A DNA stretch of 64,000 nt, from assembly GCF_039839785.1 (NCBI RefSeq), contig NZ_JBDOQT010000001.1:1240001-1304000 (forward strand), read 5' to 3'. A model generated the notes under the pieces. The model was not told the DNA's origin and ran no database searches. It worked only from the letters and a program-made list of their open reading frames with translations. Each line of letters begins with the position of its first letter. Position 1 is the stretch's first letter. The translations under genes and the position numbers were made by a program. Source of the DNA: Pelagibius sp. CAU 1746 (GTDB lineage Bacteria > Pseudomonadota > Alphaproteobacteria > Kiloniellales > Kiloniellaceae). Below, one piece after another: positions 23,034 to 59,291 of the stretch.

Positions 23034-23097
23034 GGGTTTCCTCGGCGCCTGAGTGCCGCTGGAAGTGTTCCGTGCAGGGTGTAACCGGAGAAGATCC

Positions 23098-26016
<2,919 letters not shown>

Positions 26017-26054
26017 GGGCGGAAGCTTAGTCGGATCATTCCCGGCGTTTGCGG

Positions 26055-26160
26055 CCCCACCCCCCTCCTAACCTCCCCCCATCAAGGGGGGAGGGACGTT
26101 GAATCGAGCCCTTCCTAATATCTCCCTCCCCCTTGATGGGGGAGGGTTGGGGTGGGGGTG
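26055..26160. repeat. Double-hairpin dispersed repeat, copy A
   Basis: About 106 bases consisting of two GC-rich hairpin arms in inverted orientation. The left arm (26055-26097) is built on CTCCCCCCATCAAGGGGGG and the right arm (26122-26160) on CCCTCCCCCTTGATGGGGG; a unique spacer of about 25 bases separates them. Each arm is self-complementary, and the two arms can also pair with each other. Bases 26057-26097 are identical over 41 positions to the reverse complement of part of copy B (47505-47545). It sits between gcvP and the next gene on the same strand and resembles REP/BIME-type elements. It could protect or end the gcv transcript. Confidence 0.9.
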
Positions 26161-26233
26161 ACCGTCGCCGCATTTCCCCTTTGCTGCCTCGGCCGAACGA
26201 TGCTCTCCTTGCACCCAAAGCAGGGAGTATCTC

Positions 26234-27559
26234 ATGACCAATCTGGCCTACCGGCCCTGGGTGCCGGAAGCTTGCGAGAGCTACATCCAGAGCCTCGCCG
26301 GACGGACCGCGCAGTCCGCCTCCGGCGACGTCGCCCGGCGTCTCGACGGCCTGGTGGAGCGCAACCGCGCGATCCATGAGCGCGAGTGCTTCAACCTCAA
26401 CCCGGCGACCAACGTGATGAACCCGCGCGCCGAGGCGGTGCTGGCGGCGGGGCTCGGCGCGCGGCCTTCGCTCGGCTATCCCGGCGACAAGTACGAGATG
26501 GGCCTGGAGGCCATCGAGGAGATCGAGGTAATCGCCGCCGAGCTGGCCGCCGAGGTCTTCCGCGCGAAGTATGCGGAGATCCGTGTCGCCTCGGGCGCGC
26601 TGGCGAACCTCTACGCCTTCATGGCCACCTGCCGGCCCGGCGACGCCATCATCGCGCCGCCGCCGGCCATCGGCGGCCACGTCACCCACCACGCCGCCGG
26701 CTGCGCCGGGCTCTACGGCCTGACCATCCACCCGGCGCCGGTCGATGCCGACGGTTACACCGTCGACCTGGCGGGCCTGAAGAAGCTGGCGCAGGAGGTG
26801 CGCCCCAAGCTCCTCACCCTGGGCGGCAGCCTCAACCTCTTTCCCCATCCGGTGGCCCGGGTGCGCGAGATCGCCGATTCGGTGGGCGCCAAGCTGCTGT
26901 TCGACGCCGCCCACCAGTGCGGCATCATCGCCGGCGGCGCCTGGGACGACCCGCTGGCCGAGGGCGCCCACCTCATGACCATGAGCACCTACAAGAGCCT
27001 GGGCGGGCCCGCCGGGGGCCTCATCGTCACCAACGAGGCCGAGCTGGCGGAGAAGCTCGACGCCATCGCCTTTCCGGGGCTTACCGCCAACTTCGACGCC
27101 GCCAAGTCGGCGGCCCTGGCCTACACGCTGATCGACTGGCGCGAGCAGGGCGCGGCCTATGCGGCGAAGATGATCTCCGTGGCCCGGGCCTTCGCCGCGG
27201 CCCTGGACGCCGAGGGCCTGCCGGTCTTCGCCAAGGACAAGGGCTTCACGCAGTCGCACCAGTTCGCGCTGGCGGCGGCGTCCTGGGGCGGCGGCCAGGC
27301 GACCGCCAAGAAGCTGCGCAAGGCGGGCTTCCTCGCCTGCGGCATCGGTCTGCCCCTCGACCCGGTTGAGGGCGATATGAACGGTCTCAGGATCGGCACG
27401 CCGGAGCTGGTGCGCTGGGGCGTCACCGAGGACGACGTGGCGGCGCTGGCGGGCCTGCTGAAGCGCGCGCTCAACACCGACGCACCGGAATCCCTCGCGC
27501 CCGAGGTGGCGGCCCTACGCGCCCGCTTCGACAAGCTGCACTACGTTCGGGACGCCTGA
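26234..27559 (+). CDS. Divergent serine hydroxymethyltransferase-like PLP enzyme
   Basis: A 441-residue fold-type I PLP enzyme of the SHMT family. Recognisable parts are LNPATNVMNPRAEAVLAAGLGARPSLGYPGDKYEMG near the N-terminus (an SHMT-like substrate region, altered), a central LLFDAAHQCGIIAGGAW with the PLP-binding Asp-x-x-His, and the PLP lysine Lys254 in MTMSTYKSLGGPAGGLIV. Canonical SHMT has T-T-T-H-K-T-L-R-G-P-R-G-G at this point; here Tyr replaces the His before the lysine and Ala replaces the Arg. Its place directly after the glycine cleavage operon suggests a one-carbon or serine/glycine role. Alternatives are a 2-methylserine hydroxymethyltransferase or another aldolase-type reaction. 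Confidence 0.85.
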   Translation: MTNLAYRPWVPEACESYIQSLAGRTAQSASGDVARRLDGLVERNRAIHERECFNLNPATNVMNPRAEAVLAAGLGARPSLGYPGDKYEMGLEAIEEIEVIAAELAAEVFRAKYAEIRVASGALANLYAFMATCRPGDAIIAPPPAIGGHVTHHAAGCAGLYGLTIHPAPVDADGYTVDLAGLKKLAQEVRPKLLTLGGSLNLFPHPVARVREIADSVGAKLLFDAAHQCGIIAGGAWDDPLAEGAHLMTMSTYKSLGGPAGGLIVTNEAELAEKLDAIAFPGLTANFDAAKSAALAYTLIDWREQGAAYAAKMISVARAFAAALDAEGLPVFAKDKGFTQSHQFALAAASWGGGQATAKKLRKAGFLACGIGLPLDPVEGDMNGLRIGTPELVRWGVTEDDVAALAGLLKRALNTDAPESLAPEVAALRARFDKLHYVRDA

Positions 27560-37774: not shown

Positions 37775-40700
37775 CTAGCCGAAATCCAGGTTGATGGCGC
37801 CGTCCAGCTCCGACCAGGTGTCGATGGTGCCGTCGCCGATGCCGGCGAGCGTCAGGATGTCGCCGTTGTCGAAGGTAATGGTGACGTCGGTGCCGTCGTC
37901 GGCGACCATACTGTCGTTCAGGTCGCCGAATTCGTCGACCACGCCGTCGCTGTCGACGAATTCCAGCACGTCGCCGGCATTCAGCGCCACGTCGATGATG
38001 GTGTCGTTGCCTGTGCCGGCGTTGTTGCCGCCGCCGGTATCCGATTCGAAGTTATAGACGAAGCGGTCGTCGCCGCTGCCGCCTTCGATCGTGTCATTGC
38101 CCTGGTCGCCGTCGATGGTGTCGTTGCCGCTGCCGCCGTAGATCAGGTCGTTCCCGCCGACGTCTCCGGCGGTGTCGTCGCCGTCGATCAGGTCGTTGCC
38201 GGCGCCCCCGTAGATGGTGTCGTTGCCGTCCGGTGAGGTGTTGTTGGAGTCACCGAAAATGGTGTCGTCACCGCCCTCGCCGTAGATCAGGTCGTTGTTG
38301 GAGCCGCCGAGGATGCTGTCGGCATCGCCGCCGGCCAGGTCGCCGTCGTCACCATAGATGACGTCGGCGTTGAGGCCACCGTCGAGCACGTCCAGGCCGT
38401 TGCCGCCGTAGATCAGATCCTCGCCGAGGTCACCGGTGATGGAGTCGTTGTTGTCGCCGCCGTCGATGGTGTCGTCGCCGTCGTCGCCGAAGATGGTGTC
38501 GTTGCCGGCCTCGCCGAAGATCAGGTCGTTGCCACCGACATCTGCGGCGGTGTCGTCGCCGTCGATCAGGTCGTTGCCGGCGCCGCCGTAGATGGTGTCG
38601 TTGCCGTCCGGCGAGGTGTTGTCGGAGTCGCCGAAAATGGTGTCATCGCCGCCCTCGCCGTAGAGGACGTCATTGTTGGAGCCGCCGAGGATGAAGTCGG
38701 CATCGCCGCCGACGAGATCGCCGTCGTCGCCGTAGATGATGTCGGGAAGAATGTTGCCGTCGAGGTAGTCCAGGCCATTTCCGCCGTAGAGCACGTCCGC
38801 GCCGTCTTCGCCGAAGATGGAATCGTTGTCGTCGCCGCCGTCGATGGTATCGTCGCCGCTGTCGCCCCGGATGGTGTCGTTGCCGGCCTCGCCGAAGATC
38901 AGGTCGCTGCCGCCGACATCTGCGGCGGTGTCGTCGCCGTCGATGAGGTCGTTGCCGGCGCCGCCGTAGATGGTGTCCTCGCCGTCCGGCGAAGTGTTAT
39001 CGGAGTCGCCGAAGATGGTGTCGTCTCCGCCTTCGCCATAGATCAGGTCGTTGTTGGAGCCGCCGTAAAGCAGGTCGGCGTCGCCGCCGGCGAGGTCGCC
39101 GTCGTCGCCGTAGATGATGTCCGCCAGGATGCCACTGCGGACGATGTCCATGCCATTGCCGCCGTAGATCAGGTCTTCGCCGTCGCCGCCGGTGATGGAG
39201 TCGTTGTCGTCGCCGCCGTCGATGGTGTCGTCGCCGGAATCGCCTTCGATGGTGTCGTTACCCGCCTCGCCGAAGATCAGGTCGCTGCCGCCGACATCTG
39301 CGGCGGTGTCGTCGCCGTCGATGAGATCGTTGCCGGCGCCGCCGTAGATGGTGTCCTCGCCGTCGGGCGAGGTGTTGTCGGAGTCGCCGAAGATGGTGTC
39401 GTCGCCGCCCTCGCCATAGATCAGGTCGTTGTTGGAGCCGCCGTAAAGCAGGTCGGCGTCGCCGCCGGCGAGGTCGCCGTCGTCGCCGTAGATGATGTCC
39501 GCCAGGATGCCACTGCGGACGATGTCCATGCCGTTGCCGCCGTAGATCAGGTCTTCGCCGTCACCGCCGGTGATGGAGTCGTTGTCGTCGCCGCCGTCGA
39601 TGGTGTCGTTGCCGGAATCGCCTTCGATGGTGTCGTTGCCCGCCTCACCGAAGATCAGGTCGGCCTGACCCGCATCCGCAGCCTCGTCGTCGCCGTCGAT
39701 CAGGTCGTTGCCGGCCCCGCCGTAGATGGTGTCCTCGCCGTCGGGCGAAGTGTTGTCGGAATCGCCGAAGATGGTGTCGTCGCCGCCCTCGCCGTAGATC
39801 AGGTCGTTGTTGGAGCCGCCGAGGATGAAGTCGGCATCGCCGCCGGCGAGATCGCCGTCGTCGCCGTAGATGATGTCGGGAAGAATGTTGCCGTCGAGGT
39901 AGTCCAGGCCATTTCCGCCGTAGAGCACGTCCGCGCCGTCTTCGCCGAAGATGGAATCGTTGTCGTCGCCGCCGTCGATGGTGTCGTCGCCGCTGTCGCC
40001 CCGGATTGTGTCGTTACCCGCCTCGCCGTAGATCAGATCGGCCTGATCGGTGTCTCCGGTGGCGATTTCGTCGCCTCCGTAGATCAGGTCGTTGCCGCTG
40101 CCGCCGTAGATGGTGTCCTCACCGTTGGGCGAGGTGTTGGCGGAATCGCCGACGATGGTGTCGTCACCGCCCTCGCCGTAGAGCAGGTCGTTGTTGGAGC
40201 CGCCGAGGATGCTGTCGGCGTCACCGCCAACGAGGTCGCCGTCGTCGCCGTAGACGGTGTCGGCCTGGATGTCGCCGCGCAGGACGTCCAGTCCGTTGCC
40301 GCCGTAGATGAGGTCCTCGCCGACATTGCCGTTGATGGAATCGTCGCCCTCGCCGCCGTCGATGGTGTCGCCGCCGTCCTGGCCCCGGATGGTGTCGTTG
40401 CCTGCGTCGCCGTAGAGCAGGTCGGCAAAGCCCGGGTCCCCGGAGGTCGGGTCATCGCCGTAGATCAGGTCGTTGCCGCTGCCGCCGTAGACGGTGTCGG
40501 CCCCGTTGGGCAGGGAGAAGTCGGCGTCGCCCACCAGGGTGTCGTTGCCGCCCTCGCCCCAGATCACGTCGTCGCCGATGCTGCCGTAGAGCACATCGTC
40601 GTCGCCGCCGATATTGTCTCCGTCGTCGCCGTAGATGGTGTCGGCATCGAAGCTGCCGTCGACGGTGTCGAGGCCGTTGCCGCCATAGATCAGGTCCATG

Positions 40701-42934
40701 CCCATGAACCCGTCGATGGTGTCGTTGCCCTCGCCGCCGTCGATGGTGTCGTCGCCGTCGCCGCCCTCGATGGTGTCATCGCCTGCGTCGCCATAGAGGA
40801 GGTCGTGGCCGTTCTCCCCGAAGATCTTGTCGTTGTCGCCGCCGCCGTAGGCCGTGTCGTCGCCGCTGCCGGCCTCTATGGTGTCGTCGCCTTCGTCGCC
40901 GTAGATCAGGTCGTTGCCGCCGAAATCGACCAGCCCGTCGTCGGCGACGATCGAATCGTTGCCGCTGCCGCCGTAGATCAGGTCGTTGCCGCTGCGGGTG
41001 TTGCCGCCGTCGTCTCCGTAGACCGTGTCGTTGCCGGCCCCGCCGTCCAGGGTATCGTCGCCGTCGGCATCCACGGAAGGTTCGTCGCCGTAGATCAGGT
41101 CGTCGCCGCCCTCGCCATAGGCGCGGTCGTTGCCGAGGCCGCCGTTTAGCGTGTCCGCGGCGCCCAGGCCGTCGCCGTCGTCGCCGTAGAGCAGATCGTT
41201 GCCGTCGTTGCCGAAAACCATATCGCTGTCGGCGCCGCCATAGACGCTGTCCGCGCCTTCGTTGCCGGCGACGCTGTCGTCGCCTTCGTCGCCGTAGGCC
41301 TGGTCGTCGCCGGTGTTGCCTTCGACCGAATCGTTGCCCGTGCCGCCCAGCAGGTAGTCGCCGCCTGCGCCGCCGTAGAGGCCGTCGTCGCCGCCGCCGC
41401 CGTAGAGGAAGTCGTTGTGGTCGTTCAGGTAGGGAATGGGGGCGAGATAGTCCGCCTCCGAGCCGCCGTAGAGCGAGTCGTTGCCGTCACCGCCCAGCAG
41501 GACGTCGGGCCCGCCGTAGCCTTCCAGCTTCTCGCCGCCGTCGCCCGCCTGCAGGAAGTCCTGCCCGGGCAGGGGGTCGGGGTTGTCCTGACCCGGGTTG
41601 AGGTCGTCGGTCACGGGGTCCGAGGGGTTGGGGTCCACCGTCGCCGTGTCGTTGAGAGCGCCGTCGGTGGGCGTGACGTTCGTCGTCCAGTCGGTCTGGT
41701 CGTCGTCGTCGGCCAGGTCGACGCGCGAGAAGATGAGGTGCCCCTCGGTGAACTGGCCGAAGAAGGTCTCGAAGTTGAAGCCCGGCAACTGCGCGCCGAA
41801 TCCGTCGGGCGAGCCTGAGAAGTCGGCATCGGCGAGGACGGCAAGCTCCGCCTGCGTCAGGTTGGCCGCGAAGGTGTCCAGGGTCTGGTCGCCATCGATG
41901 TCCTCGCCCGCGCGGTAGACGAGGTTCACGGCGATGGGCTCCGTCGTGTCGTCGCCCAGGTCCCAGAAGGTGGCGTCGGCGATTGTGAAACCGCCGACGA
42001 CGGTGCCGGCGGCATCGAAGACCCGCACGATGATATCTTCAACCCCCGCCGTACCCTCGTCGTCGGCGAGCTGGTAGAAGACGATGAAACCGCCGGCAGG
42101 AATGGTAATGCCGTCGGGCAGGCCGAAGGTGATCAGCGCGCCGTCGGGATTGAGAATCTGGATCGTCAGGTCTTCTGTTGTTGTGGGGACGCCGGAGTTG
42201 TTGTGCAGCTCGATGAAGCTGTACTCGGGCAGCTTTTGGGCCTGGGCCGTCTCCGGTTCTTCATCCGGCGCGGCGCCGGGCAAGCCCGGAATGTCGATCG
42301 GCACGCGCAGGCCGATCTCGTTGATGATCAACGGCGGCGGCGGGAAGATCGGCAGGATTGGGTCCGGCTCCACGGAGATCAGCCCGAACTCCAGTTCCAC
42401 CGGCGGAATTACCCCCTGGGCGGCCAGCAGGTCGAGGATGTTGCCCAGGTTGTCGTCGTAGGCGGAGACGCCCCCGCTGAGCGCGCCGGGGCCGGCGGCG
42501 ACCTCATTCAGTCCCGCGGTGCCGCCCTCCAGCGCCAGGGCCTGGTCGATCAAGATGTCGGCGCCGACATCGATTCCGGCGATGCGGAATGCCGGGACGT
42601 CGCCGGACTCGGCGGCCTGCACCATGCCCAGAAAGACGACCTGGCTATCGGCCAGGCCGTCGCCGTCGTCGTCGAAGGTGACGGCGAAGTCATCGCCGCG
42701 CACGGCCACCTGGGCGCTGGCCGGCGGGAAATTCAGAATGTAGGTCTGTCCGGGGAGCGATTGGATCTCGACTGTCTGGCCGGGAGCCGGACGCTCGATG
42801 ATGCTCGTGCCGCCTGCCTGACCGGTCAGGGATGCCGCTTCAAGGCCGGCAGTTTCGGCGGGTTCCGTGAGGGCGTCATCCATCGCCACGGTGTCGACAA
42901 GGCCGCTGACACCAAGTTCAAGATCATCGGACAT
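37775..42934 (-). CDS. Large RTX-repeat secreted protein with a lamin-tail-like N-terminal domain
   Basis: A 1719-residue acidic protein of hemolysin-type calcium-binding repeats, expected to leave the cell through a type I secretion system and fold in calcium. The N-terminal part (about 1-190) resembles the start of other large T1SS substrates (SIIERPAPGQTVEIQSLPGQTYILNF). Residues about 200-375 look like a lamin-tail domain (LIINEIG, SFIELHNNSG, ITIPAGGFIVFY). From about 470 to 1620 it is GGxGxDxxx nonapeptides, first irregular, then about seven super-repeats of 126 residues (378 bp). The end (about 1625-1719, DDRFVYNF to NLDFG) is the usual T1SS C-terminal region. No ABC transporter, membrane fusion protein or outer-membrane channel gene is adjacent. 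Function (surface layer, adhesion or other) is unknown. Confidence 0.93.
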   Translation of the reverse strand: MSDDLELGVSGLVDTVAMDDALTEPAETAGLEAASLTGQAGGTSIIERPAPGQTVEIQSLPGQTYILNFPPASAQVAVRGDDFAVTFDDDGDGLADSQVVFLGMVQAAESGDVPAFRIAGIDVGADILIDQALALEGGTAGLNEVAAGPGALSGGVSAYDDNLGNILDLLAAQGVIPPVELEFGLISVEPDPILPIFPPPPLIINEIGLRVPIDIPGLPGAAPDEEPETAQAQKLPEYSFIELHNNSGVPTTTEDLTIQILNPDGALITFGLPDGITIPAGGFIVFYQLADDEGTAGVEDIIVRVFDAAGTVVGGFTIADATFWDLGDDTTEPIAVNLVYRAGEDIDGDQTLDTFAANLTQAELAVLADADFSGSPDGFGAQLPGFNFETFFGQFTEGHLIFSRVDLADDDDQTDWTTNVTPTDGALNDTATVDPNPSDPVTDDLNPGQDNPDPLPGQDFLQAGDGGEKLEGYGGPDVLLGGDGNDSLYGGSEADYLAPIPYLNDHNDFLYGGGGDDGLYGGAGGDYLLGGTGNDSVEGNTGDDQAYGDEGDDSVAGNEGADSVYGGADSDMVFGNDGNDLLYGDDGDGLGAADTLNGGLGNDRAYGEGGDDLIYGDEPSVDADGDDTLDGGAGNDTVYGDDGGNTRSGNDLIYGGSGNDSIVADDGLVDFGGNDLIYGDEGDDTIEAGSGDDTAYGGGDNDKIFGENGHDLLYGDAGDDTIEGGDGDDTIDGGEGNDTIDGFMGMDLIYGGNGLDTVDGSFDADTIYGDDGDNIGGDDDVLYGSIGDDVIWGEGGNDTLVGDADFSLPNGADTVYGGSGNDLIYGDDPTSGDPGFADLLYGDAGNDTIRGQDGGDTIDGGEGDDSINGNVGEDLIYGGNGLDVLRGDIQADTVYGDDGDLVGGDADSILGGSNNDLLYGEGGDDTIVGDSANTSPNGEDTIYGGSGNDLIYGGDEIATGDTDQADLIYGEAGNDTIRGDSGDDTIDGGDDNDSIFGEDGADVLYGGNGLDYLDGNILPDIIYGDDGDLAGGDADFILGGSNNDLIYGEGGDDTIFGDSDNTSPDGEDTIYGGAGNDLIDGDDEAADAGQADLIFGEAGNDTIEGDSGNDTIDGGDDNDSITGGDGEDLIYGGNGMDIVRSGILADIIYGDDGDLAGGDADLLYGGSNNDLIYGEGGDDTIFGDSDNTSPDGEDTIYGGAGNDLIDGDDTAADVGGSDLIFGEAGNDTIEGDSGDDTIDGGDDNDSITGGDGEDLIYGGNGMDIVRSGILADIIYGDDGDLAGGDADLLYGGSNNDLIYGEGGDDTIFGDSDNTSPDGEDTIYGGAGNDLIDGDDTAADVGGSDLIFGEAGNDTIRGDSGDDTIDGGDDNDSIFGEDGADVLYGGNGLDYLDGNILPDIIYGDDGDLVGGDADFILGGSNNDVLYGEGGDDTIFGDSDNTSPDGNDTIYGGAGNDLIDGDDTAADVGGNDLIFGEAGNDTIFGDDGDDTIDGGDNNDSITGDLGEDLIYGGNGLDVLDGGLNADVIYGDDGDLAGGDADSILGGSNNDLIYGEGGDDTIFGDSNNTSPDGNDTIYGGAGNDLIDGDDTAGDVGGNDLIYGGSGNDTIDGDQGNDTIEGGSGDDRFVYNFESDTGGGNNAGTGNDTIIDVALNAGDVLEFVDSDGVVDEFGDLNDSMVADDGTDVTITFDNGDILTLAGIGDGTIDTWSELDGAINLDFG
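38150..40800. repeat. Array of about seven 378-bp tandem super-repeats inside the RTX gene
   Basis: The same landmark (TCTGCGGCGG on the plus strand) occurs at 38541, 38919 and 39297, exactly 378 bp apart; another (CGAGGTAGTCCAGG) occurs at 38761 and 39895, exactly 3 x 378 bp apart. In protein order the modules are marked by LDTVDGSF, LDVLRGDI, LDYLDGNI, MDIVRSGI, MDIVRSGI, LDYLDGNI and LDVLDGGL. Modules 4 and 5 are nearly identical in DNA, as are parts of modules 3 and 6. The boundaries given are approximate. Confidence 0.9.
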
Positions 42935-46030: not shown

Positions 46031-47362
46031 CTACTCGGCCGAGGCGTCGCTGGCGGCGGCGCCGTCGCCCCCCGTTTTGCTCCGGCGGGGCTTCCTGTAG
46101 CGCGCCAGCCAGGCGTTGACCAGCCCGCGCGAGCGGCCCAGCGCCAGGGCCTCCGGCCCCACCGTGAGGCGCAGGGTCTCGCGGCCCGAGGTGATGCCCA
46201 GCAGCGCGATGCGGTGCAGGCGGCGCGCCGCTTCCAGCCACACCGGGCTGACCAGCAGCGAGATCACCGTGACCGCGACCAGCAGGCGGTGGCTTTCCCA
46301 GTCGATGGCGGCCACCGTCAGGCCTTGTGCCGCGAGGATGAAGGAGAATTCGCCGAGCTGGGCCAGCAGCACCGAGGAGAGGAAGGCGCGCGGCCAGGTC
46401 TCGCCCAGGGCGCGGATCAGGCCGATGTTGAGCGCGGTCTTCAGCACCGCGACGAAGAACACCAGCATGACCACGGTGCCCAGGTTGGCCCAGATGTACT
46501 GGATGTCGATCAGCAGGCCGATGGTCAGGAAGAAGACCATCAGCAGCACCGTCTGGATGGGCTCGGTGTAGTGGATCATGGCGCGCCGGCTGGTCGAATT
46601 GCCGATCACCAGGCCGGCCAGGAAGGCGCCGTAGGAGGCGGAGAGGCCCAGCAGGCCGGAGAGCGCCGCGGCGCCGAAGCAGAAGCCGAGGCCGGCCAGC
46701 GGCAGCAGTTCGCGGTTGCGCCCGATCTCGCGGGCGAAGGGCAGGCGCACCCGCTTGCGCTTGCCCAGGTAGGCGATCATCAGGCCCAGGAAGACGACGG
46801 ACAGCAGGATCTTGACGATGGCCAGGGTGCCGATGCCGCCGTCGCCGCGGAAGGCGCCGATAATCAGGATCATGGGGATCACCGCCAGATCCTGGGCGAT
46901 GAGGATGCCGATGGTGACGTTGCCGACGCGGGTGCGCTTCTCGCCGATCTCGTCCAGCATCTTGATGGCCACGGCGGTCGACGACAGCGCCACCACGAAG
47001 CCGACCACCACGGTCAGCGCCAGCGGCCAGTCGAGCAGCAGGCCCAGCAGGTACATGCCCAAGAAGGCGACGGCGATCTGGAAGGCGGTGGTCAGCACCG
47101 CCACCTTCCACACCGCGCGGAAGTCGCGCAGGTTCAGCTCCATGCCGATGAAGAACAGCAGCATGAGCACGCCCAGCTCGGCCAGAAGCTGCACCTGCTC
47201 GCGGCTCTGCACGAAACCGAAGCCCGAGGGCCCGAGGACCGCGCCGGCCAGGATGTAGCCCAGCAGGATGGGTTGGCGGAAATAACGCATCACCAAGCCG
47301 CAGCCGAGCGCGCCGACGACGACGATGGCCAGTTCGGTAATGCTGCTTGTGTGCCCTTCCAT
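46031..47362 (-). CDS. Monovalent cation:proton antiporter, CPA2 (Kef-like) family
   Basis: A 443-residue membrane protein with about 12 helices and no TrkA-N nucleotide domain. Family elements are the N-terminal ITELAIVVVGALGCGLVMRYFRQPILLGYILAGAVLGP, the ELGVLMLLFFIGMELNLRDFR signature at about 62-82, and the ion-site region VVALSSTAVAIKMLDEIGEKRTRVGNVTIGILIAQDLAVIP, with the paired acidic residues of the CPA2 core. It ends in a basic cytoplasmic tail (about 380-443). It is probably a potassium or sodium/proton exchanger used in pH or electrophile stress; the cation is not deducible. Repeat element B lies directly upstream. Confidence 0.92.
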   Translation of the reverse strand: MEGHTSSITELAIVVVGALGCGLVMRYFRQPILLGYILAGAVLGPSGFGFVQSREQVQLLAELGVLMLLFFIGMELNLRDFRAVWKVAVLTTAFQIAVAFLGMYLLGLLLDWPLALTVVVGFVVALSSTAVAIKMLDEIGEKRTRVGNVTIGILIAQDLAVIPMILIIGAFRGDGGIGTLAIVKILLSVVFLGLMIAYLGKRKRVRLPFAREIGRNRELLPLAGLGFCFGAAALSGLLGLSASYGAFLAGLVIGNSTSRRAMIHYTEPIQTVLLMVFFLTIGLLIDIQYIWANLGTVVMLVFFVAVLKTALNIGLIRALGETWPRAFLSSVLLAQLGEFSFILAAQGLTVAAIDWESHRLLVAVTVISLLVSPVWLEAARRLHRIALLGITSGRETLRLTVGPEALALGRSRGLVNAWLARYRKPRRSKTGGDGAAASDASAE

Positions 47363-47438: not shown

Positions 47439-47545
47439 CCCACCCCCACCCTAGCCCTCCCCCATCAAAGGGGGAGGGGATGTATTGCCGAGGCCCCTCT
47501 TCTTGTCCCTCCCCCCTTGATGGGGGGAGGTTAGGAGGGGGGTGG
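47439..47545. repeat. Double-hairpin dispersed repeat, copy B
   Basis: About 107 bases, the reverse-complement counterpart of the element at 26055-26160. The arm at 47505-47545 matches 26057-26097 at all 41 positions on the opposite strand. The other arm (47439-47480) matches 26122-26160 with a few differences. The inner spacer of about 25 bases is unrelated between the copies. It lies between the radical SAM gene and the antiporter gene, both on the minus strand, so relative to transcription it has the same orientation as copy A. Confidence 0.9.
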
Positions 47546-47568: not shown

Positions 47569-48690
47569 CTAAAGCAGCGACATTTGCCTTTCGTCAGCCC
47601 TCGGCGCCTCGAACTGGGAGGTGTCCAGGCGCGCCCCGCCGCGGTTGAGGCCCAGCCGCCGCTCGGCCTGCTTGAAGCGCTTGGCGAGCAGTTCGGCGTA
47701 GACCCCGCTGCCGCGCTGGCGCAGGCCGAACTCGGACTGATTGAGGCCGCCCTCGCGGGTGTCCCGCACCAGATTCAGCACCTTGGCCTTGCGCTCGGGA
47801 AAATGCGCCTCCAGCCATTCGGCGAAGAGGTTCTTGATCTCCAGCGGCAGGCGCAGCAGCACGTAGCCGCCGTGGCGGGCGCCGGCGCGCACCGCGGCGT
47901 CCAGCAGGGACTCCAGTTCCATGTCGTTGATCGCCGGGATCATCGGCGCCGTCATCACCCCGGCCGGCACGCCGGCGGCATTCAGGGTGCGCAGCGCCTC
48001 CAGGCGGCGCTCCGGCGTCGGCGCGCGCGGCTCCATGACGCGGGAGAGCCGGCGGTCCAGTGTGGTGAGGGAAACCATCACCCGCACCAGCCCCTCGCGG
48101 GCCATGGGCGCCAGGATGTCCAGGTCGCGCAGCACCAGGTTGGACTTGGTGACGATGGTGAAGGGGTGCCGGGTCTCGCGCAGCACCTCCAGGATGGCGC
48201 GGGTGATCTTCAGGCGCCGCTCGATGGGCTGGTAGGGGTCGGTGTTGGTGCCCAGCGCGATGGGCTCCGGCTTGTAGCCCTTGCGCGCCAGTTCCTTCCT
48301 CAGGAGGGCCGCAGCCTCCGGCTTGGCCAGCAGCTTGGTCTCGAAGTCCAGACCGGGGGAATAGCCCAGCCAAGCGTGGCTCGGCCGGGCAAAGCAGTAG
48401 ATGCAGCCGTGCTCGCAGCCCCGATAGGGATTGATCGAGCGGTCGAAGGGGACATCGGGTGAGCTGTTCCGGGTGATGATGGTGCGGCTGGCGTCCCAGG
48501 TGACCTCGGTGGGCGGGCCCGGCGGCTCGGCCAGGTTGTCGGGGGAGCCCATTGCATCGGGAGAAAAGGTCTCCGGGGCCGCGCCCCAGCCGTCGTCGAT
48601 GGCGACCCGGGTGAAGGGCTCGTAGCGGCCGCTGGCGTTGCTGACGGCGCCACGGCCCTTCTTCGGTCGCTGGGGGATCAGATCAACCAT
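47569..48690 (-). CDS. PA0069-family radical SAM protein
   Basis: A 373-residue radical SAM enzyme related to the SplB/PA0069 branch. The cluster motif CxxxCxxC is in YRGCEHGCIYCFARPSHAWLG near residues 100-120. Further family stretches are IALGTNTDPYQPIERRLKITRAILEVL, FTIVTKSNLVLRDLDIL and SLTTLDRRLSRVMEPRAPTPERRLEAL, and MIPAINDMELESLLDAA follows. The N-terminal 60 residues are a polar extension. The reaction is unknown. The start is ATG 48690; the frame stays open up to 48810, but that part is AT-rich non-coding leader plus a tRNA-like segment. It precedes repeat copy B. Confidence 0.9.
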   Translation of the reverse strand: MVDLIPQRPKKGRGAVSNASGRYEPFTRVAIDDGWGAAPETFSPDAMGSPDNLAEPPGPPTEVTWDASRTIITRNSSPDVPFDRSINPYRGCEHGCIYCFARPSHAWLGYSPGLDFETKLLAKPEAAALLRKELARKGYKPEPIALGTNTDPYQPIERRLKITRAILEVLRETRHPFTIVTKSNLVLRDLDILAPMAREGLVRVMVSLTTLDRRLSRVMEPRAPTPERRLEALRTLNAAGVPAGVMTAPMIPAINDMELESLLDAAVRAGARHGGYVLLRLPLEIKNLFAEWLEAHFPERKAKVLNLVRDTREGGLNQSEFGLRQRGSGVYAELLAKRFKQAERRLGLNRGGARLDTSQFEAPRADERQMSLL

Positions 48691-49060
48691 GGGATTGAAG
48701 TTAGCGCTAAAAAGTGAATAAAACAAGAACAAAACAGGAAAATAGAGTTTCAGGAGCGGCGGAATCCCTGGCGCGACTCGGCGGGACTCGAACCGCAGGA
48801 TCCAGTCCACCCCGGTCCTACTTCAACTTGTGATGGCATATCGGAGCGCCCCTATATCTTGATTCGTCGACGGGCATGGGGCGGCCCGCTCCGGGGGGCG
48901 ATTACGACTCCCGGCTGTAGAACATCGCCGGAAACGAGAACAAACGTTCTCTTCGCCACCACGCCTGGCGGGGCCAAGCGCAGGCGCGGCGGTCAGGCGG
49001 AAAGGCTCACGAGGGCAAAAGGGCTCACGAGGGCAAAAGGGGTCAGGGGGGAGAAAGGCC
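48691..49060. other. Intergenic region with AT-rich leader, tRNA-like remnant and 18-bp tandem duplication
   Basis: No gene is seen in these 370 bases. From 48700 to 48750 the sequence is AT-rich and probably holds the radical SAM promoter (minus strand). At 48769-48798, read on the minus strand, GGTTCGAGTCCCGCCGAG followed by CGCGCCA resembles a tRNA T-loop and CCA end, without a matching 5' half. An 18-base unit beginning GGCTCACGAGGGC is duplicated in tandem at 49004-49021 and 49022-49039, just after the nitroreductase stop. Confidence 0.5.
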
Positions 49061-59022: not shown

Positions 59023-59291
59023 AGAGCCTTTCACGGTCAGATTGAAGCAATTCTGTTTGTGAGCGGAGTGGTGGTCCGCAAGGAGAATGGCGCAGCGCGA
59101 TGCGGCGCATCGGGCAAGCCTTTCGACGCCGCAGGCGCCCGCCGCTCGCAAACCCGCAGGGCCGGGTGGCTTTGCGTCAATGCCGGCGTGTTTTGCCTTG
59201 GCCATAGCGCCGCTATGGCCGGCGTCAAACCCCTTGGTCTTGCCGCAAATCCACTCCGGCAGAATGGTTCAATCTGACCGTGAAAGGCTCT
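59023..59291. mobile_element. MITE-like element with 24-bp perfect terminal inverted repeats
   Basis: The 24 bases at 59023-59046 (starting AGAGCCTTTCACGG) are the exact reverse complement of 59268-59291. Imperfect similarity continues inward for about 30 bases on each side (for example ATTCTG and CGGAGTGG in both arms). The interior of about 220 bases has no gene and contains the near-palindrome GGCCATAGCG-C-CGCTATGGCC at 59200-59220. It fills the gap between convergent ispE and the PGB-domain gene, and its right end touches the latter's stop codon. No target duplication is evident, and no transposase is present in the window. Without a second copy, calling it mobile is an inference; it could instead be a bidirectional terminator. 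Confidence 0.6.

Follow-up and report, generated by a model that had tools for sequence, protein, structure and literature searches.

The stretch of DNA analyzed here, hereafter the window, comprises 64,000 nucleotides (C1:1240001-1304000) of the 4.66-Mb genome of Pelagibius sp. CAU 1746. It contains two copies of an intergenic element of about 105 bp, in which two arms, A and B, face each other around a 22-23-nt spacer (Table 1). Copy 1 lies between the genes of the glycine cleavage P-protein and of an SHMT-like PLP enzyme, whereas copy 2 lies between those of a radical SAM protein and a Na+/H+ exchanger. Judged by the sequence of glycine dehydrogenase, Pelagibius litoralis (78%) is the closest named organism, followed by members of the Kiloniellaceae and Kiloniellales. 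The original prediction, made from the letters of the window, correctly placed both copies between tandem genes and read them the same way along the mRNA, and in both arm A comes first.

Table 1. Features of the two element copies, their neighboring genes and the predicted triplex motifs (positions are those of the window)
Feature	Position	Strand	Basis or remark
Copy 1, whole double-hairpin element	26055..26160	+	arm A first; matches MITE-model core
Copy 1 arm A	26057..26097	+	exact reverse complement of 47505-47545
Copy 1 spacer	26098..26119	+	decayed, family-wide homology
Copy 1 arm B, facing arm A	26120..26160	-	arm comparison
Copy 2, whole element	47439..47545	-	arm A first on - strand reading
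Copy 2 arm B	47441..47481	+	85% to copy 1 arm B
Copy 2 spacer	47482..47504	-	spacer comparison
Copy 2 arm A	47505..47545	-	same sequence as arm A of copy 1
Upstream neighbor of copy 1: GDC-P gene (glycine cleavage P-protein)	23053..26016	+	stop 38 nt before element
Downstream neighbor of copy 1: gene of an SHMT-like PLP enzyme	26234..27559	+	in tandem with upstream gene
Gene upstream of copy 2 on mRNA: radical SAM	47569..48810	-	stop 23 nt before element
Gene downstream of copy 2: Na+/H+ exchanger	46031..47362	-	in tandem with upstream gene
Class-II triplex motif, copy 1 arm A: CCTCCCCCC-5-GGGGGGAGG-3-GGAGGGGGG	26060..26094	-	no mismatch
Class-II triplex motif, copy 1 arm B: CCCTCCCCC-5-GGGGGAGGG-3-GGGTGGGGG	26124..26158	+	no mismatch
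Class-II triplex motif, copy 2 arm B: CCCTCCCCC-6-GGGGGAGGG-3-GGGTGGGGG	47443..47478	-	no mismatch
Class-II triplex motif, copy 2 arm A: CCTCCCCCC-5-GGGGGGAGG-3-GGAGGGGGG	47508..47542	+	no mismatch

The A arms of the two copies are identical at 41 of 41 positions when one is read as the reverse complement, and the B arms (26120-26160 and 47441-47481) share 85% identity; an exact match of 41 nt within 64 kb is not a matter of chance. Within arm A of copy 1, a mirror stem, CCCCCCTCC, precedes the hairpin CTCCCCCC-ATCAA-GGGGGGAG. The two copies, their positions and their structure had been recognized correctly. The accompanying claim that each arm is itself a hairpin holds with one qualification: each arm does contain a G+C hairpin, but the strongest predicted RNA fold pairs arm with arm in one long hairpin (-73 and -78 kcal/mol for copies 1 and 2, respectively) rather than forming separate hairpins.

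No terminator-like site, that is, a hairpin with a T-run as in Rho-independent termination, was called at copy 1 or copy 2, and their identity as intrinsic terminators is rejected on this ground. At gathering score, the element matches no Rfam family, and the sole Rfam match in the window is a glycine riboswitch (RF00504, 21217-21312, plus strand, 71.6 bits) upstream of the glycine-cleavage region. Elsewhere in the window, a 1719-aa ORF (37775-42934, minus strand) runs across a 378-nt tandem array with a 27-nt period; our guess is that this array encodes RTX-like calcium-binding repeats.

Family, spacer and arms

A scan of the whole genome for the hairpin core CCCCCATCAA(N)GGGGG gave 36 pattern matches, and the reversed control gave 0. 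The original prediction of a repeat family, to be checked by collecting further copies, is borne out by about 39 element-bearing loci in this genome and by positive results in all seven congeners, so that the core is present throughout the genus (8 of 8 genomes). It is essentially missing from the other genera sampled in this family, while other families of the order contain it, some of them abundantly. Across 289 genomes of the class, the strict paired pattern, with the same spacing and unlike arms, has a patchy occurrence and is found in 26, and the control is close to zero. Beside the A/B pairs, there is a second subfamily, in which the arm CCCCCACCCTAACCCTCCCCCGCAAGGGGGGAGGG faces a B-like arm; at L076, L093 and L094, arms of this subfamily point outward (spacing 33-45 nt) or the pairs are widely spaced. 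A plasmid search with the element (136 bp) returned distant matches only, in Sinorhizobium and Deinococcus, and a literature search by sequence returned no match.

End-to-end alignment of 66 full A/B copies, drawn from all 8 genomes in the genus, reveals spacer homology across all of them, with the consensus GGATTTTTTAAGCCGCTTCAATAACTTCC. Judging from this alignment, the spacer is best described as a homologous segment that decays faster than the arms, and not as the free, unrelated filler that had been supposed. The spacers of copies 1 and 2 are no more alike than those of random copy pairs (rank 42 of 62). The better preservation of the arms, which had also been proposed, is confirmed: the mean pairwise difference is 0.11-0.12 in the arms and 0.60 in the spacer in this genome, and 0.05 and 0.16, respectively, among the young copies of the congener G003, with the reservation that the arms served to locate the copies, so that arm conservation is overestimated. 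Copies listed via their outer ends in G003 and in G018, a genome of another family of the order, keep their arms in nearly all cases, which argues against ascertainment as the full explanation of arm persistence. A useful 3'-end structure, homogenization or, in part, arm-based ascertainment may each account for the persistence of the arms.

In the sequence of arm A, CCCCCCTCC-TAA-CCTCCCCCC-ATCAA-GGGGGGAGG, a mirror repeat adjoins a hairpin, and the complement of this sequence is a predicted class-II purine-motif intrastrand triplex with a stem of 9 and loops of 5 and 3. A finder that follows the published rules (Y stem, loop of 1-6, R stem, loop of 1-6 and third stem; triads G.GC, A.AT or T.AT; stems of at least 8; at most 1 mismatch) returns the four arms and nothing else in the window, all with a stem of 9 and 0 mismatches, and returns 0 motifs with a stem of at least 8 in ten random windows. 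At the level of sequence, the arms conform to the general definition of the class-II BoxC/PIT/TM motif; the triplex itself is predicted. The TM_ECO pattern sensu stricto, CCCTCNCCC N3-6 GGGNGAGGG N3 GGGNGAGGG, fails when taken literally, the third stem here being GGGTGGGGG or GGAGGGGGG, and this narrower identity is rejected; TM_ECO-type cores are present elsewhere in the genus.

We know of no route by which BoxC/PIT/TM repeats spread and of no reported link between them and mobile DNA. Knowledge of these repeats goes back to the 1990s. BoxC/PIT/TM_ECO elements (Hoyne and Maher; Holder et al. 2015) form a class-II purine-motif triplex with 9-nt stems, a loop of 3-6 and then a loop of 3 (TTA); they are always intergenic, their facing pairs join two unlike arm types, their occurrence is patchy among close relatives and their sites vary between strains, and neither a link to mobile elements nor a placement rule is reported for them by Holder et al. 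(2015; PMC4666352). The elements described here share the 9-nt stems, the loop topology, the intergenic location, the face-to-face arrangement of unlike arms, the patchy distribution and the unstable sites. Unlike TM_ECO, whose third stem is GGGNGAGGG, they have G-richer stems (CCCTCCCCC/GGGGGAGGG/GGGTGGGGG), and unlike BoxC/PIT/TM_ECO in general, they are mostly paired, at gene 3' ends and inside an IS4-type MITE.

CIRs are reportedly intergenic inverted repeats of about 100 bp in alphaproteobacteria, described by Chen and Shapiro in 2003, and the present elements resemble them to that extent. The defining feature of a CIR is a CcrM site, GANTC, in the middle of a repeat. The arm consensus here, unlike a CIR so defined, contains no GANTC, and copy 1 has a single GAATC, in the spacer, so that identity with CIRs is rejected under this definition. 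The CIR elements of Caulobacter are cited in a review (PMC10969869).

A MITE with IS4-type ends

A MITE with both of its IS4-type ends is present in G003, in G018 and once in this genome, and several copies are bounded by target duplications of 9-10 bp. In G003, conservation runs outward past the arms to terminal inverted repeats, CACTGCTGTCCGGTTTAG...CTAAACCGGACAGCAGTG. The resulting unit is about 290 bp long, has 18-nt terminal repeats that match an IS4-family element and carries the A/B pair as its interior, with flanks of unequal length (57 nt on the A side and about 130 nt on the B side). Two-ended units measure 291-296 bp in G003 and 295 bp in G001. The sole intact MITE of this genome, at C1:3349663-3349946, is 284 bp long, and no other close match to the MITE ends was found in the genome. 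Independently, in the other family, units of G018 with these ends enclose the A/B pair and measure 287-291 bp. Target duplications are exact at L159 (CGGGCGGTC, 9/9) and L275 (GGCGCTTATC, 10/10) and nearly so at L274 (9/10) and at L280, L281 and L284 (8/9 each); several MITEs, mostly those within palindromes, have no clear duplication.

The same ends also flank an annotated complete IS4-family IS in Rhizobium, which encodes a DDE_Tnp_1 + DUF4372 transposase and has a 9-bp target duplication, GCACCATGT; a transposase of the IS4 type is encoded in Rhizobium sp. CIAT894. In G002 and G004, contig breaks coincide with multi-copy IS ends of this kind. A complete gene for an IS4 transposase was not found in any of the eight genome assemblies of the genus; the congener assemblies are fragmented and break inside the IS. 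DUF4372 was not found in the genus either, and the autonomous IS was therefore identified via plasmid records. The element has in common with IS4-family IS (DUF4372 group) and MITEs the terminal repeats CACTGSTGTCCGGTTTAR, the 9-bp duplication and the insertion into palindromic repeats; unlike an IS4-family IS, it is about 290 bp long, lacks a transposase and has an interior hairpin pair unrelated to the IS body. The MITEs at L216, L218 and L170 and the G018 loci L278-L284 are nested in other palindromic repeats (GTCACCCTCGGGCTTGACCC..., CCGGACTTGATC...), which suggests a repeat-in-repeat targeting habit. A separate 269-bp unit at 59023-59291 of the window, with 27-nt terminal inverted repeats (96%; AGAGCCTTTCACGGTCAGATTGAA...), resembles another MITE.

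Aligned to a MITE model of 295 positions, copy 1 matches at 58-166 only and copy 2 at 59-164 only, and IS4-type ends are absent from both, so the window copies appear to be remnants rather than intact MITE members. About 13 of the 18 full A/B copies in this genome extend into MITE sequence beyond the core. Since the window copies have no MITE sequence outside their core, it is from such sister copies that we infer their descent from the MITE rather than from a free core. In our opinion, the window copies are, with a probability of roughly 0.7, eroded cores of a non-autonomous, IS4-ended MITE of about 290 bp that carries facing BoxC/PIT-class hairpins. The original suggestion that copying acts on the structure is supported, in the form of transposition.

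Judging from the shared ends, an IS4-type transposase (DDE, DUF4372) acting on ends that begin 5'-CACTGCTGTCCGGTTTAG... most likely moved the MITE, which would often have inserted into palindromic repeats, such as GTCACCCTCGGGCTTGACCC, already located after genes. Insertions after genes would be tolerated and those elsewhere lost, leading to 3'-end placement. After landing, the ends and the spacer would decay, the self-pairing arms may persist through structural constraint or homogenization, and the facing arms would promote inversion and deletion of the element.

Less probably, the order of events was the reverse: the 105-bp pair would then be an older BoxC-class repeat with its own means of spread, captured at least twice by an IS4-type MITE, with bursts as a result. 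This possibility is in keeping with the patchy occurrence of the pair in the class, at the same spacing and with unlike arms (26 of 289 genomes, near-zero control), with the G013 copies, which have no common flank, and with the few or absent IS4-type ends among the cores of G013, G020, G037 and G039. The core can exist or persist without the MITE vehicle, since G013, G020 and G037, all of another family, have many cores and almost no such ends. Nevertheless, MITE flanks are found on most copies in the genus and on the G018 copies, no core-only target duplication was seen, and old MITEs would likewise end as naked cores.

Placement, turnover and possible roles

Among orientation-confident full elements of the genus, 43 lie between convergent, 20 between tandem and 2 between divergent genes, compared with 39, 195 and 114, respectively, of the element-free gaps of at least 60 bp in the same regions, all counts being approximate because gene calling relied on a simple ORF caller with hexamer scoring. 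Divergent gaps are depleted (p=4.6e-8) and convergent gaps enriched (p=7.6e-20). In other families, the convergent/tandem/divergent counts are 9/9/0 in G013 and 4/12/2 in G018 (pooled divergent depletion, p=0.0012). Elements follow genes or sit between convergent genes, and divergent promoters are avoided.

A fixed orientation along the mRNA, as originally proposed, fails as a rule. Arm A comes first in tandem pairs at a ratio of 7:1 in this genome (p=0.07), at 5:7 in the congeners and in 21 of 33 cases in all genomes examined (p=0.16), and one element is flipped in place. With convergent pairs included, the ratio here becomes 16:1, but this figure is confounded by the unequal MITE flanks: convergent pairs cannot test polarity because the A-side flank is shorter than the B-side flank. 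Outside this genome, the other copies are randomly oriented, the outcome that the original prediction had named as speaking against it.

With one genome for each species, gains and losses at orthologous sites are read from comparisons between species. The window copies are absent from their orthologous sites in 7 of 7 congeners. At the copy-1 site (window 26017-26233), a TM_ECO-type element, the pair CCCTCTCCC..GGGAGAGGG..GGGTGAGGG, follows the same stop codon in G002, G006 and G007 (L106, L108 and L102, respectively), and G007 also has a TM_ECO-like element at its copy-2 locus, as does G003 at the L090 site. Eight orthologous sites were read, and at three of them a congener without an A/B pair has a TM_ECO-type pair instead; unlike triplex-pair families seem to share one 3' site, an impression drawn from these eight sites. 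The copy-2 site of G004 retains only a short C-run/G-run remnant, and where G004 carries one of its elements, this genome has a clean empty site.

When the sister species represented by this genome and G007 are compared at L072/L133, flanks are collinear over 7.5 kb and the whole element is inverted (L072:5944-6051, L133:4076-4183). The spacer finds its best match among 62 copies in the inverted orthologue (score 16; next 8; non-inverted 5), and the exchange must lie in the tips of about 8 nt, TCACCCCC/GGGGGTGA, common to both arms. L082/L136 was considered as a second in-place inversion; its arms read opposite ways, but it is left uncounted because the spacers give no support for orthology. 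In sum, the spacer is homologous across the family, the elements are strongly placed at the 3' ends of genes, orthologous sites are empty or hold something else, and one element is inverted in place.

A role of the elements at 3' ends is possible, although we consider it unlikely that the arms, as a stable hairpin on either strand, are selected for an action on RNA, whether they end transcription in both directions or shield 3' ends. Such a function would explain why the arms are conserved and why convergent genes are preferred; it agrees with the location after genes and the avoidance of promoters in three families, with an arm divergence 3-5 times lower than that of the spacer, with very stable predicted folds and with the T-run directly after hairpin A in young G003 copies. 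Against this, the T-run is lost in most copies here and no terminator-like site was called at the window copies, orientation varies and sites differ between species, arm-based copy finding inflates arm conservation, and a harmless passenger would equally avoid promoters. A further argument against it is that the BoxC/PIT elements of E. coli had neither promoter nor terminator activity (PMC4666352).

The originally proposed spread as a REPIN/BIME-type element by a RAYT (IS200-like Y1 transposase) is very improbable: two inverse hairpins, a variable spacer, high copy number and intergenic location do recall REPINs/BIMEs, and the genome has five Y1_Tnp matches, but the element is bounded by terminal inverted repeats with target duplications, which indicate a DDE transposase, and no core hairpin was found in the examined surroundings of Y1_Tnp genes. 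In addition, a Y1_Tnp gene is missing from G003, which has the second-highest core count in the genus, and from G002 and G005, although all three carry the family, whereas G009 has the best Y1_Tnp match and lacks the repeat; REPIN or RAYT-REP membership is rejected, no RAYT gene flanked by the repeat having been found. Four Y1_Tnp matches, two of them stop-interrupted, lie within about 11 kb at L099 (G000:C1:3506110-3517353), a local amplification unrelated to the repeat.

Under the MITE reading, the triplex pairs may be a working part of the MITE and not mere hitch-hikers, either shielding or ending transcripts both ways or aiding DNA recognition or repair, and gene 3' ends may serve as shared landing pads, an extension that we hold to be doubtful. 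If true, the facing hairpins would make insertions after genes harmless, gene 3' ends would therefore become shared landing pads, and unlike triplex-pair families would replace one another there. The location of the pair inside an IS4-ended MITE in two families of one order provides a concrete vehicle for BoxC-class repeats, and the pile-up at 3' ends, the in-place flipping and the turnover of sites make it answerable whether such a repeat is a passenger or a 3'-end device.
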